Shown: one piece after another, positions 37,849 through 41,670 of the stretch
How the letters are laid out: every line of letters begins with the position of its first letter
Numbering within the stretch: position 1 is the first letter of the stretch
From: Candidatus Flexifilum affinis
GTDB lineage: Bacteria > Chloroflexota > Anaerolineae > Aggregatilineales > Phototrophicaceae
Assembly: GCA_016713325.1 (NCBI GenBank)
Contig: JADJPJ010000006.1
Location: forward strand, 472,188-536,187
Reading direction: 5' to 3'
Length of the DNA: 64,000 bases
The notes under the pieces: model-generated
Seen by the model: only the letters and a program-made list of their open reading frames with translations
Databases searched by the model: none
What the model was told of the DNA's origin: nothing
Program-made: the position numbers and the translations under genes

Positions 37849-38232
37849 GGGGGTGAACCAGCTTCGACGTTGGAGGCTGACTCCGTGTGGCAGGTCGTGG
37901 CGCCTCACCACGTAAAAAGGGGCAAGGCATTAACTGCCAACAACAACAAACCTGCTCTGGCTTACGCAGCCTAAGGCTGTTTGACCGGAGTGCTGGGCCA
38001 TAGTAGCCCAGCCGTTCGCCCTGATCGGCTCCACCCGGTCAGACTGGCGGGCGTCATAAATGGTGGGGTGCGGCTTCCGTCACGCCGATAAGCGGAGGCC
38101 AAAGATCCATCGGCTAGCAGGGCGCGTACCGGGCCGTCTGGGGCTACGCACTGCGAAACTCAACAGACGGCTAAACCTGTAGAAGCACGGTTTCGAGTTC
38201 AGCGGACCAGGGTGCAACTCCCTGCACCTCCA
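37849..38232 (+). ncRNA. ssrA: tmRNA (ssrA)
   Basis: The transfer-messenger RNA that rescues stalled ribosomes. The 5' end GGGGGUG (37849-37855) pairs with CACCUCC (38225-38231) to make the acceptor stem; A38232 is the discriminator. CCA is not encoded. The messenger part matches the CGUAAAAAG...CAA context seen upstream of the tag in other tmRNAs, followed by resume codon GCC. The tag reads ANNNKPALAYAA (37936-37971) with stop TAA at 37972-37974. The short hydrophobic LAYAA end is the usual protease signal. The T-arm is CAGGG-TGCAACT-CCCTG, where the loop has UG in place of the usual UU. One-piece form, not permuted. Confidence 0.95.
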
Positions 38233-38242
38233 CAAGCAGTGA

Positions 38243-38278
38243 AGCAGGCGACCAGAACCGGTCGCCTGCTTTGTTATT
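38243..38278 (+). terminator. Intrinsic terminator of ssrA
   Basis: A perfect 11-bp stem AGCAGGCGACC/GGTCGCCTGCT with a 6-base loop, followed by TTGTTATT, 11 bases after the tmRNA 3' end. Confidence 0.85.
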
Positions 38279-38298
38279 CGGTCGTACTCTTTTGTGCG

Positions 38299-39129
38299 CT
38301 AGAGTTCGTCCAGGTGGGCATCTACCCACTCCAGATAGCTCACCCGCAGCGTATGTGTCCGTGGGCCGGGCGTTCCGCTCCCGATCACCCGGGCATCGAT
38401 TTCCACGACCGGCACAATGTTCCGGCTGGCGCTGGTGATGAACGCTTCCGAAAGCCGCACGATATCCCGCACATTTACCGCCTCGTGGCGAAGGGGCAGC
38501 ACCTTCGGAGCAACCTCGAAGACGATCTGCTGGGCGATTCCCGGCAGCATACCCTCCGCCGCTGTCCGCAGCTCACCGTCGAGCACCGCATAGAAGTTGC
38601 TGCTTAGGCCCTCCAGGATGTCGCCTTCCGGTGAGAGCAGCAGGCCGGTATAAATGCCGAGGGGCATGGCTGCCTCCACACTCTTGCGATCGTGCATCCA
38701 GCCTGTGGTCTTGGCGGCCGGGTCATGTCGCGCCCTGTCTGGGACGGTCACGACGCGAACCCCGCTTTCATAGAGCGCCGGGTCGACTGGCTTAAAGGGC
38801 TCGATGGTCAGGATCAGGGTATCAGGCGACTGCCTGGAGACCGTAATGCGGAAACGTACGTCGCCAAATCCGGATTCAAGGATCATCTGCCGCAGAGCGG
38901 CGCGCAGCCGAGGCCGATCCAGCTTCAGCGGAATGCCTGCGCGCCCGGCCGAGTCTTCAAGCCGATTCAGGTGGGCATCGAGCTTGATGACTTTTGTGGC
39001 CTCAAAGGTGTTGGTCACGGTGTAGACGCCGTCGAGCGGCTCGCTGTCGGCGGCTTCGGCCAGAGAAGCGGCTGAAGTCTCCACATGCTGAACGGCGGTC
39101 GGGGTCAGGAGACGGATCAGGCAGGGCAT
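38299..39129 (-). CDS. Class IV PLP aminotransferase (branched-chain aminotransferase/aminodeoxychorismate lyase-like)
   Basis: 276 aa, fold-type IV PLP enzyme. The N-terminal domain has DGVYTVTNTFEATKVIKLDAHLNRL. The PLP lysine is probably in AAKTTGWMHDRKSVE, and the phosphate-binding part is ILEGLSSNFYAVLDGELRT. The C-terminal LSEAFITSASRNIVPVVEID is typical. It could be a branched-chain or D-amino-acid aminotransferase or 4-amino-4-deoxychorismate lyase; the residues do not decide. ATG 39129 is chosen over the frame start at 39216, which overlaps the ask promoter region. Confidence 0.82.
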   Translation of the reverse strand: MPCLIRLLTPTAVQHVETSAASLAEAADSEPLDGVYTVTNTFEATKVIKLDAHLNRLEDSAGRAGIPLKLDRPRLRAALRQMILESGFGDVRFRITVSRQSPDTLILTIEPFKPVDPALYESGVRVVTVPDRARHDPAAKTTGWMHDRKSVEAAMPLGIYTGLLLSPEGDILEGLSSNFYAVLDGELRTAAEGMLPGIAQQIVFEVAPKVLPLRHEAVNVRDIVRLSEAFITSASRNIVPVVEIDARVIGSGTPGPRTHTLRVSYLEWVDAHLDEL

Positions 39130-39181
39130 AATGCGGTGCGCACCTCGCAAATTCGCAACAAACTGACCACTAGCATATCTC

Positions 39182-39210
39182 TTGACAGGCGTGGAGAAAA
39201 CCGTTACATT
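39182..39210 (+). promoter_or_regulatory. Promoter of the aspartate kinase leader
   Basis: A perfect TTGACA (39182-39187), 17-base spacer and TACATT (39205-39210). The predicted start near 39217 gives a leader of about 200 bases containing the small ORF and terminator before ask. Confidence 0.8.
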
Positions 39211-39258
39211 CACCATATTGATTTCTCAAGGCGGACAATCGTGCTGAGTCAGCAGCGA

Positions 39259-39327
39259 ATGACCACTATGGGTATGGGTATGACCACTATGCGGAGAATG
39301 CATAGCTGGTGTTTGCGCGTGCCTTGA
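39259..39327 (+). CDS. Thr/Met-rich 22-aa leader peptide
   Basis: A 22-codon ORF (ATG 39259, TGA 39325-39327) beginning MTTMGMGMTTM and followed by RRMHSW. Six Met and four Thr occur within the first 14 codons, including two Thr-Thr-Met blocks. Thr and Met are end products of the pathway that the next gene, aspartate kinase, opens. Twenty-two bases after the stop comes an intrinsic terminator, and then ask. The arrangement parallels the E. coli thr leader but reads Met as well as Thr. The Shine-Dalgarno is weak. The ORF can be extended upstream to 39085, but that would place its start before the promoter, so the short form is favoured. Confidence 0.75.
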   Translation: MTTMGMGMTTMRRMHSWCLRVP

Positions 39328-39349
39328 GAGATTGACCGAACTCGGAACC

Positions 39350-39386
39350 AAAGGGCGTGTGGGACACCAACCACACGCCCTTTTTT
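39350..39386 (+). terminator. Intrinsic terminator in the ask leader (candidate attenuator)
   Basis: A perfect 13-bp stem (39350-39362 with 39371-39383) around an 8-base loop, ending in six T (39381-39386). It lies between the Thr/Met leader ORF and ask with no other gene to terminate. A competing pairing is possible between CCTTGAG at the end of the leader ORF and CTC...AAGG, which includes the base of the terminator arm. Confidence 0.88.
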
Positions 39387-39420
39387 GTTGATTCACGCTT
39401 TGCAGGGGAGTCGTTCTCGA

Positions 39421-40842
39421 ATGTCTACGCTGACGATGAAGTTTGGCGGCACATCAGTGGGCAGTCCGGAAGCCATCGCGACAGTCGTCCGAATCGTGAA
39501 TGAAGCGGTGCAAGAGGGGCATCGGGTCGTCGTCGTCGTCTCGGCGATGGCGGGCGTCACCGACATGCTGATCACCTCGGTCCGCGAAGCCGCAGCGGGC
39601 AACCGCTGGGTGTACCTGTCAACCTCGCAGAAGATACGCGACCGGCACATTGAAGCGGCCAATCTGCTGATCCAGCCCGGCAGCGATCGCAACGCCATCA
39701 TCGCAGAAATCGAGACGCTGATGGAGCAGCATGTCGAGATGTGCAACGCCATCAACATGCTCGGCGAGTCTACGCTGCGGATCGACGATGCCGTGTTCGC
39801 CTTCGGGGAGCGCCTCAGCAGCCGCGTGATCGCCGCCGCCATGCGCAGCCAGGGACTTAAGGCAAAACAGTACGACGCCAACCAGCTGGTCATCACCAAC
39901 GACCATTTCACGACCGCCATCCCGATATGGGACGAGACCGAGACGCACATTCGGGCGGAACTGCTGCCCGCGCTGGATCGTGGGATCGTGCCGGTCATCA
40001 CCGGGTTTGTGGGCGGGACGAAGAGTGGTCATATCACCACACTTGGCCGGGGCGGCAGCGACTACAGCGGCGCCATCTTCGCGACCTACACCGACAGTGA
40101 CGAACTGGTCATCTGGACCGATGTCGATGGCGTCATGACCACCGACCCGCGCGTAGATCCGCGGGCGCGCGTGCTGCCCAGTATCTCCTACCAGGAGGTC
40201 GGCGAACTGGCCTTCTACGGCGCCAAGGTGCTGCACCCGAAGACGGTGCAGCCCATTCTGAACCGCGGCATTCCGATGCGCGTGCGCAACACTTTCAACA
40301 CCAGCCATCCCGGCACGCTGATCACCAAGGTTGCCGAGCCGATCAACACGATCATCAAAGCGGTGACCAGCATCAAGGCGGTCAGCCTGCTGACGGTCAG
40401 CGGCAAGGGAATGATCGGCGTGCCGGGCATCGCCGGACGCACCTTCCTGGCGACGGCGCATGCCGGCACCAGCATTCTGATGATCTCCCAGGCGTCATCG
40501 GAACAGAGCTTCTGCTTTGTGGTGCCGCAGGAGCGCGCCAAGACGGTTGCGGATGCGATCGAACGAGAAATGAACGCCGAGATCGCCCGTGAGGATGTGG
40601 ATGGCGTGGATATCCTGAACAATGTAGGGGTGATCACGGTCGTCGGCGCGGGCATGCGCGGCACACCGGGCGTCGCCGGACGCGTGTTCAGCACGCTCGG
40701 CAATCACCGCATCAACGTGATCGCCATCGCTCAGGGCGCCTCAGAATGCAGTATTTCGTTCGTGATCAGCGAAGAAGAACGCGATCGCGCAGTCCTGGCG
40801 CTGCACGAACTGGCGTTGGAGGAGAGCGCAGTGGCGGTCTAG
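39421..40842 (+). CDS. lysC: Aspartate kinase
   Basis: 473 aa, phosphorylates aspartate with ATP, the first step to Lys, Thr, Met and homoserine. The N-terminus TMKFGGTSVGSPEAI holds the nucleotide-binding KFGGTS. The kinase core continues with GFVGGTKSGHITTLGRGGSDYSG and WTDVDGVMTTDPRVDP. Two ACT domains fill the last about 150 residues (VSLLTVSGKGMIGVPGIAGRTF, VGVITVVGAGMRGTPGVAGRVF), so it is probably feedback-inhibited by Thr and/or Lys. The ATG at 39421 follows GGGGAG. No homoserine dehydrogenase domain is fused. Transcription appears to be controlled by the Thr/Met leader peptide and terminator. Confidence 0.95.
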   Translation: MSTLTMKFGGTSVGSPEAIATVVRIVNEAVQEGHRVVVVVSAMAGVTDMLITSVREAAAGNRWVYLSTSQKIRDRHIEAANLLIQPGSDRNAIIAEIETLMEQHVEMCNAINMLGESTLRIDDAVFAFGERLSSRVIAAAMRSQGLKAKQYDANQLVITNDHFTTAIPIWDETETHIRAELLPALDRGIVPVITGFVGGTKSGHITTLGRGGSDYSGAIFATYTDSDELVIWTDVDGVMTTDPRVDPRARVLPSISYQEVGELAFYGAKVLHPKTVQPILNRGIPMRVRNTFNTSHPGTLITKVAEPINTIIKAVTSIKAVSLLTVSGKGMIGVPGIAGRTFLATAHAGTSILMISQASSEQSFCFVVPQERAKTVADAIEREMNAEIAREDVDGVDILNNVGVITVVGAGMRGTPGVAGRVFSTLGNHRINVIAIAQGASECSISFVISEEERDRAVLALHELALEESAVAV

Positions 40843-40881
40843 CGACCGTCCGTGAGTCAGTGCGCGGCAATCCTTACGAGA

Positions 40882-40919
40882 ATTGGGCCGGGTATCCCAG
40901 TTGGCATGTCCGGTCCAAT
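40882..40919. terminator. Hairpin between convergent genes
   Basis: A 10-bp stem with one G-U pair (ATTGGGCCGG with CCGGTCCAAT) and an 18-base loop, between the ask stop and the stop of the membrane-anchored gene. No T-tract. Confidence 0.35.
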
Positions 40920-40923
40920 ACCC

Positions 40924-41670
40924 TCATTCCCCTTCAGGCATTCCGCGTCCCTGTGTCTCGTAGGACCAGTAAGCGGCAAACCCGCGCCACGGCGACTCCA
41001 CCGCGCAGGACGTGCTGGCCAGCAGGTCGTTCAGCGTAAACTCCAGGTCGGCAGTGACGGCCAACCGGTTGATCTTCATATCGGGCGTCAGGCGAGGGAT
41101 TACAGTCTCACCGGAGAAGGCGTAGGTCTGCTTCTCCGGGGCAATCTCGGCGATGATGTCCTGGCCAAACACCAGCAGCAGCCGCGAATTCCCTGCCTCG
41201 CACGACGCGAACACGCGGGACGGGGGCGGCATCTTCAGCAGCAGATCCCCCACCCGCCAGAGCCGGGCCGGCGGCATTTCGTAGATCCCCACCGAGCGCA
41301 CGCCGAGGGTCGGAGTCTGCTGGAAGCGTACCAGCGCCAGCGCCAGCGGGTCGGCGTCGGTGTCGGCGCTTGAAGCCGCCATACCTGCAGCATCCGCCGT
41401 ATGAGTCCCGATCCGCAGGGTATAGGAAAAGTGCGTCGCGGTCAGAAACGACGCGGGCTTGACCGCCATCTGCTGGTAGGTCGACTCCGCCGTCTGCCGG
41501 TCGGTCAGCCCAGGTGTCACCCCGAACGCGCACGGCAGGTCGCAGTTGTTCTGGGCCATGATCAGGTCGGGGTCGCCCAATGCCAACGTGCCCGCGCCCA
41601 TGAACAGCAGCATCAGAACCAGGGCGCCAGCGGTCAGCAACACGGCGACGCGTCCTAAGCTGGAAGCCAT
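40924..41670 (-). CDS. Membrane-anchored exported protein of unknown function
   Basis: 248 aa. An N-terminal helix (residues about 8-30, VAVLLTAGALVLMLLFMGAG) serves as signal anchor. The rest is soluble with four cysteines in two spaced pairs (NNCDLPC near residue 45 and later SC, TSC), which may form disulfides outside the membrane. I do not recognise a family. AAGGAGG stands before the ATG at 41670, 10 bases after the stop of the phosphodiester-glycosidase-type gene, so the two form an operon of exported proteins. Confidence 0.7.
   Translation of the reverse strand: MASSLGRVAVLLTAGALVLMLLFMGAGTLALGDPDLIMAQNNCDLPCAFGVTPGLTDRQTAESTYQQMAVKPASFLTATHFSYTLRIGTHTADAAGMAASSADTDADPLALALVRFQQTPTLGVRSVGIYEMPPARLWRVGDLLLKMPPPSRVFASCEAGNSRLLLVFGQDIIAEIAPEKQTYAFSGETVIPRLTPDMKINRLAVTADLEFTLNDLLASTSCAVESPWRGFAAYWSYETQGRGMPEGE

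Follow-up and report, generated by a model that had tools for sequence, protein, structure and literature searches.

The window, i.e., the whole stretch of 64,000 nucleotides from Candidatus Flexifilum affinis analysed here, harbors on the forward strand an ask gene (39421..40842) coding for an aspartate kinase of 473 residues (TIGR00657, 402.8 bits against a cut-off of 208.7). Of the bifunctional models, just the kinase portion is matched, and hence the protein represents a stand-alone enzyme. Upstream of the gene, and on the same strand, all the elements listed in a first-pass annotation were found, that is, a consensus promoter, a 22-codon ORF rich in threonine and methionine codons, a perfect 13-bp terminator with six T residues and then ask. 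The sigma-70-like promoter (39182..39210) is composed of the hexamers TTGACA (39182-39187) and TACATT (39205-39210), separated by 17 nt, with 10 of 12 consensus matches; a consensus scan of the region 38000-41500 retrieved one promoter-like site, compared with 1.1 expected in shuffled sequences, and the match is weak evidence when taken alone. The intrinsic terminator (39350..39386) has arms (39350-39362 and 39371-39383) that are 100% complementary over 13 bp, with the T6 tract at 39381-39386.

As regards the surroundings, a tmRNA gene (37849-38235; Rfam RF00023, 148.1 bits) is located some 1 kb 5' of the leader, and an ORF resembling class IV aminotransferases (38299-39216, minus strand) diverges from it; the true start of the latter is probably further in, since the start of the longest ORF, at 39216, overlaps the leader promoter.

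The 22-codon ORF starting with ATG (39259-39327, MTTMGMGMTTMRRMHSWCLRVP) does exist and contains, as had been counted, six Met and four Thr codons; its start, however, is less likely to be the true one than the GTG at 39241, which opens an ORF of 28 codons (39241..39327, MLSQQRMTTMGMGMTTMRRMHSWCLRVP). The GTG is preferred because a Shine-Dalgarno-like AAGGCGG (39228..39234, plus strand) is located 6 nt 5' of it, whereas no clear stretch of this kind was read from the window sequence ahead of the ATG at 39259. Both versions of the ORF end at the TGA codon 39325-39327 and share the Thr/Met block (39259-39291). Among 983 short ORFs of 12-60 codons on both strands, this leader ranks first, with nine Thr plus Met per 12 codons (six for the runner-up). 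Thus, a short ORF enriched in codons for end products of the pathway lies between promoter and gene, and an intrinsic terminator lies between that ORF and the gene, which is the arrangement of an attenuator.

The segment 39216-39392 folds better than its shuffled versions (z = -6.5), and three pairings on the plus strand can be drawn upstream of the terminator. The first is a long-range pair (39221-39232 with 39321-39332) that encloses the leader ORF and covers its Shine-Dalgarno-like stretch; a similar, partly altered counterpart was seen in the loci L001 and L033. The second is the 1:2 hairpin (39283-39293 with 39299-39310; z -2.0 in the window), whose 3' arm overlaps the strand described next. 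The third involves a candidate antiterminator strand (region 2, 39307..39325), which reaches the leader stop codon and whose duplex with 39352-39369 has an energy of -23.2 kcal/mol, with 3 of 200 shuffles being as good. It had been proposed that CTCAAGG and CCTTGAG form the antiterminator; this was rejected, as the two arms fall on the Shine-Dalgarno region and on the stop-codon region of the leader (39221-39232/39321-39332), and the pairing of 39307-39325 with 39352-39369 represents the candidate.

To place the window among its relatives, genome contigs were scanned, and of the 249 ask relatives retrieved the best 80, picked by similarity, were joined to it, giving 81 loci. A Thr/Met-rich leader ORF followed by a terminator precedes ask in 68 of the 81, so the conservation asked for in the first-pass annotation does exist; in these 68 loci the gap between leader stop and terminator is 19-40 nt. 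The 13 loci failing the leader test are L025, L050, L055, L057, L064, L066, L067, L068, L072, L073, L077, L079, and L080. The nearest loci by ask identity (84-85%, among the best 80 of 249) belong to the Anaerolineae MAGs L001 and L033, and the window grouped with both in the protein tree. Typical leader blocks are MTTMGMGMTTM, MMTMGMGTSS, TTTTMMTTM, and STGTTTTMSMTMM; the script picked as leader start the start codon maximizing Thr plus Met, and some listed leaders are over-long. TTGAC followed by a -10-like hexamer was found upstream of 39 of the 68 leaders, versus 2 of the 68 reverse complements. Loci and locus pairs are phylogenetically related, so that the counts are not independent. The element is a real, conserved feature, and this conservation, as judged from the sequences compared, is a stronger argument against chance than the ranking of the window ORF or its folding z-score.

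The composition of the leaders was compared with that of the Ask proteins (68 leaders, at most 27 codons each). Threonine accounts for 20.3% of leader residues versus 7.0% in Ask (2.9-fold), and methionine for 13.3% versus 2.4% (5.6-fold); the ratios for the other residues are 0.5-fold for isoleucine, 0.9-fold for lysine and 1.3-fold for glycine. At least three Thr and at least two Met are present in 63 of the 68 leaders, and the Met count goes down to one in L016 and L078. The Thr/Met codon signature ahead of a stand-alone ask, noticed initially in one genome, is therefore borne out both by the anatomy of the locus and by comparative genomics. Leaders favour ACT, the rarest threonine codon in their ask genes: the 364 leader Thr codons comprise 168 ACT, 127 ACC, 48 ACG, and 21 ACA, while the 2140 of the pooled ask genes comprise 184, 837, 829, and 290, respectively. 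This ACT/ACC bias suggests that the gauged tRNA-Thr is the one reading ACU/ACC. Between related leaders (34 non-independent pairs), codons with a single difference are synonymous in 73 out of 159 cases (46%, 24% being expected), and changes at codon positions 1, 2 and 3 number 43, 41 and 75.

These data also bear on the idea of an arrest peptide, in which the nascent Thr/Met-rich chain would bind a small molecule in the exit tunnel and thereby halt its own ribosome. Main-group leaders do finish in recurrent motifs, such as RGxFRLP; however, that motif is encoded by a conserved RNA strand, GGGGnnUUUCC, which pairs with the terminator, so a constraint on the RNA explains it. Moreover, the order of residues in the Thr/Met block varies while the composition is kept, and arrest by the nascent peptide appears very improbable to us.

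The terminator is well supported by base-pair covariation in relatives, with 98.8% of cells paired and two-sided changes in six out of ten pairs (the alignment kept 62 of the 68 leaders, six near-duplicates being removed, and the model alignment 52 rows, after removal of ten more). The antiterminator pairing, which brings the last part of the leader ORF together with the 5' arm and loop of the terminator, is kept in most loci in spite of a varying sequence. When each leader strand was compared with its dinucleotide shuffles, the duplex had z < -2 in 45 of the 68 loci and was not significant in 23. The mean energy with a locus's own partner is -21.6 kcal/mol, versus about -17.2 kcal/mol with the terminators of dissimilar loci; in this swap, the own pair ranks within the best tenth at 33 of the 68 loci and within the better half at 59. 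In both the duplex and the swap tests, the fixed strand window shortens the antiterminator where the stop falls early in the strand (e.g., L004, L007, L013, and L069). According to these per-locus tests, an antiterminator pairing exclusive of the terminator is present. Covariation of the antiterminator in fixed columns, on the other hand, was not above that of shuffles (74.1% versus 74.3% of cells paired), and sliding the columns by 1-3 positions lowered the paired cells to 33-60%, versus 74% unslid. The flat result is probably due to shifts of register and loop length between lineages; it counts against the antiterminator, although such shifts blunt this test.

Ribosome position was then considered in the folding. 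Placing a ribosome 16 codons short of the stop brings the terminator's equilibrium probability to less than 0.5 in 15 of the 68 loci, versus 2 of 340 shuffled controls; none of the 68 goes that low when the ribosome sits at the stop codon. In the window the same probability stays at 1.0 even with a stalled ribosome; hence, any switch at this locus would need to act kinetically. Before the 3' arm of the window terminator is made, the probability that its 5' arm is engaged upstream is 0.82 if a ribosome has stalled, 0.13 if it has reached the stop and 0.63 if there is no ribosome. This kind of engagement barely separates real from shuffled sequences (48 of 68 versus 168 of 340), and 37 of the 68 leaders engage the 5' arm above 0.5 without any ribosome. 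Overlap between the 1:2 hairpin and the antiterminator strand was seen in 66 of the 68 loci, but the hairpin reaches z < -2 in just 25.

A different reading is that the terminator is constitutive, belonging for instance to a small RNA, and that ask is driven from another promoter. The stem is indeed very stable; nevertheless, the consensus scan, which detects promoters of the consensus type only, retrieved no promoter-like site between terminator and ask, so the separate downstream promoter that would have undermined the first-pass annotation was not seen. Furthermore, a chance terminator would not jointly keep the ORF, the codon bias and the antiterminator complementarity, and we give this reading a very small probability.

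Folding and comparative results together fit a scheme of the trp/thr type, and it is highly probable, judging from the sequence evidence, that the element is a ribosome-mediated transcription attenuator on a stand-alone ask, bivalent for threonine and methionine. From the ORF, the codon bias, the terminator, their conservation and the computed alternative pairing, we infer the following course of events. RNA polymerase would start from the promoter at 39182-39210, and a ribosome would translate the short leader peptide. With Thr-tRNA and Met-tRNA plentiful, the ribosome would reach the stop codon at 39325 and cover the antiterminator strand, the terminator (39350-39383) would form, and ask would be off. 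If charged Thr-tRNA or Met-tRNA were scarce, the ribosome would presumably stall in the Thr/Met block; the stalled ribosome would block the 1:2 hairpin, freeing 39307-39325 for pairing with the 5' arm and loop of the terminator (39352-39369), and the antiterminator so formed would allow readthrough into ask.

Among the closest known systems is the thr leader of E. coli (thrL; Rfam Thr_leader, RF00506), which carries Thr and Ile codons and precedes the bifunctional thrA of the thrABC operon. Runs of regulatory codons, a terminator before an aspartate kinase gene and, as predicted for the leaders studied here, overlapping hairpins and a threonine signal are shared by the two systems; the chloroflexotal leaders differ in belonging to another phylum, in carrying Thr and Met codons, with isoleucine at half its frequency in Ask, and in preceding a stand-alone ask. 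The distinction from the E. coli system drawn in the first-pass annotation is thus upheld by the residue frequencies and by the Rfam search, in which the window leader gave no match to the covariance model of RF00506. The window leader would work like the E. coli one while standing outside the Rfam family. A further likeness is with the leaders of ilvGMEDA and ilvBNC, bivalent and multivalent attenuators in which a single leader responds to more than one end product of a branched pathway; there they are the branched-chain amino acids, and here they would be threonine and methionine, a pair that, to our knowledge, is not among the known bivalent or multivalent attenuators.

It might also be supposed that the region is a riboswitch for some metabolite or a leader that binds tRNA (T-box), the ORF being fortuitous. 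The strong closed fold of the window and the occurrence of SAM-I riboswitches before ask in relatives (see below) speak for this; against it, no Rfam match was obtained in the window region at E values up to 10, apart from two far below their cut-offs, and what is conserved is codon content with a coding type of substitution rather than a known aptamer core. For the window, known riboswitches (SAM, lysine) and the T-box were accordingly rejected, no Rfam model matching upstream of ask, and on these grounds we hold the whole class of explanations to be very improbable.

Aspartate kinase feeds the synthesis of lysine and, via homoserine, of threonine and methionine. When 22 genomes were searched with the Ask of the window, 15 showed a second ask, 32-38% identical over nearly its whole length; this copy is present in 14 of the 18 genomes with a leader on the first ask and in one of the four without (G016). 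No Thr/Met leader precedes the 14 copies of this paralogue inspected, and none was found before the homoserine dehydrogenase gene hom in 19 cases, in which the gene starts were assigned with a motif rule and may be wrong in part. A wider Thr/Met regulon including hom or the second ask was rejected on these counts (0/19 and 0/14), and, since both genes are without it, the leader is specific to the first ask among the genes tested. The distribution fits a division of labour, which these gene sets may reflect, between one kinase serving the homoserine branch and one acting elsewhere. At L112, L118, and L119, the second ask is immediately preceded by a GC-rich inverted repeat with trailing T residues, and by no Thr/Met leader.

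SAM-I riboswitches (RF00162), aptamers reading SAM directly, are absent from the window and were found before ask in related Chloroflexota. They lie upstream of ask, on its strand, in at least nine of the 109 loci of the class-wide survey described below (L151, L156, L170, L174, L189, L196, L204, L206, and L223), a lower bound since 20 of the 109 regions were run against Rfam, nine of them selected because they fitted a pattern of the SAM core, and also at L067, outside the survey and one of the 13 leaderless loci. These riboswitches independently suggest methionine status as a signal for this gene; because they replace the leader before some ask genes, methionine is a plausible signal. Leaderless ask genes at L068, L072, L077, L080, L185, L187, and L209 follow the 3' end of a threonine synthase-like gene, which we take to be threonine synthase from its LTGHGLKDP motif, and this suggests a possible thrC-ask operon at these seven loci.

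The phylogenetic distribution of the leader was checked in a census of 150 genomes drawn evenly from the class, 105 of which have an Ask at E <= 1e-100. The 109 ask upstream regions taken comprise 103 best copies (two truncated ones being dropped) and six second copies; the three truncated ask hits left out are those of G527 and G489 and the second copy of G466. The strict cut required at least six Thr plus Met in 12 codons, with at least two of each. It was passed by 16 of the 109 regions (93 fail), versus none of the 109 reverse complements and none of 218 shuffles; a leader could be missed in five of the 109, which have less than 220 nt upstream, and L216 begins inside the gene. Because 16 of 109 pass in an even sample, only a minority of ask genes across the whole class has such a leader. 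Eleven of the 16 positives are new, and five repeat genomes of the first set (G006, G008, G019, G020, and G262, the last judged the same as L044 for its identical leader). L171 resembles a weak leader below the strict cut. A covariance model built on the main group, run over more than 400 genomes of the phylum, had matches at E <= 0.01 in 27 genomes, many of them ordinary terminators, and is too narrow for a census.

On a tree of 104 Ask proteins (L218, L228-L232 and L071, the last ended by its contig, were not included), the leader is present in 63 of the 67 members of the window's clade, the four without it forming one subclade, and in eight out of ten members of a second clade; by a quick method, presence and absence require five label changes, versus 28.2 in shuffles. 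Leaders of the type MTMTGMMTTG occur in L218 and L228-L232, where the terminator sequence is wholly different from that of the main group; in L228, the terminator 5' arm CCCCCCGGCC is, as read from the sequence, complementary to GGCCGGGGGG within the leader. Thr and Met together thus recur in leaders of seemingly unrelated RNA, in L070/L075/L161 and in L218/L228-L232. One survey locus, L165, shows a Thr-rich, Met-free leader (YTTTTGTPATG) with a terminator before ask, possibly a Thr-only version.

Whether both amino acids are read is the point on which an attenuator of the same type admits two interpretations. The sensor might respond to threonine only, the Met codons deriving from RNA structure, codon neighbourhood (ACT-ATG) or drift. 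The E. coli thr attenuator, with Thr and Ile codons, has no Met signal, the leader of L165 has no Met, and those of L016 and L078 have one each; set against this are the enrichment in methionine, which exceeds that in threonine (5.6-fold versus 2.9-fold), the recurrence of both residues on apparently unrelated RNAs, and the SAM-I riboswitches ahead of ask in at least ten related loci. We regard a threonine-only sensor as unlikely, though far less so than the other alternatives discussed above. The sequence comparisons make sensing of threonine very likely and that of methionine likely, with less certainty than for threonine. If the Met codons truly sense, Chloroflexota would use a bivalent Thr/Met attenuator to adjust the homoserine-branch aspartate kinase to the two end products of that branch. 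In at least three ask lineages such control would have been reconstructed on RNA that appears unrelated, and it would have traded places with SAM-I riboswitches; this fuller account we somewhat favour.

Two further loci harbor possible leaders of another kind. At L090 (G103:C98, about 1501-1632), a short ORF rich in Tyr, Phe and Trp (CAYYFYRFFWYYAA) and a terminator precede an ORF that we assume, from its protein start, to code for DAHP synthase; it is a candidate aromatic leader-peptide attenuator in Chloroflexota. At L110 (G262:C230, about 1501-1625), the leader MMLNTAKNLYNFYYFYF... and a terminator precede an AroH-like and then a DAHP-synthase-like ORF, presumably chorismate mutase AroH and DAHP synthase, and this would be a second candidate.

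As to published systems, the excerpts of a study of Actinobacteria (PMC1262725) report classical attenuators for trp, trpS and leuS, with ilvB and cys as further genes bearing candidate leader peptides, and state that no conserved RNA structure was seen there ahead of threonine, lysine or methionine operons. Those leader peptides were also predicted by comparative genomics outside Proteobacteria, and in the same excerpts none concerns threonine or methionine (PMC1262725). In 2010, as stated in the excerpted text of PMC2965389, leader peptide systems were known, to its authors' knowledge, only in Proteobacteria and Actinobacteria, before Firmicutes were added. Among the open-access full-text matches listed, there was neither a Thr/Met leader on an aspartate kinase nor a description of a leader-peptide attenuator in Chloroflexota. 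Four open-access papers combining "leader peptide" with Chloroflexi or Anaerolineae concern, in their retrieved portions, general leader-gene statistics (PMC4833913), histidine regulation in Firmicutes (PMC9413887), twin-arginine leaders (PMC4959651), and lantipeptides (PMC6497799).

If the proposed interpretation is true, attenuation of the trp/thr type would extend to a phylum for which the literature searched holds no description, and methionine would join the amino acids read through leader codons. The sensing of methionine by codons would be unusual, as methionine starvation threatens initiation with fMet too, and the leader would make it possible to examine how the cell may use Met codons as a gauge of starvation while initiation itself needs methionine. 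Moreover, with ask preceded by a Thr/Met leader, by a SAM-I riboswitch or by neither in related lineages, these bacteria offer a comparative system in which the replacement of one RNA sensor by another may be traced.
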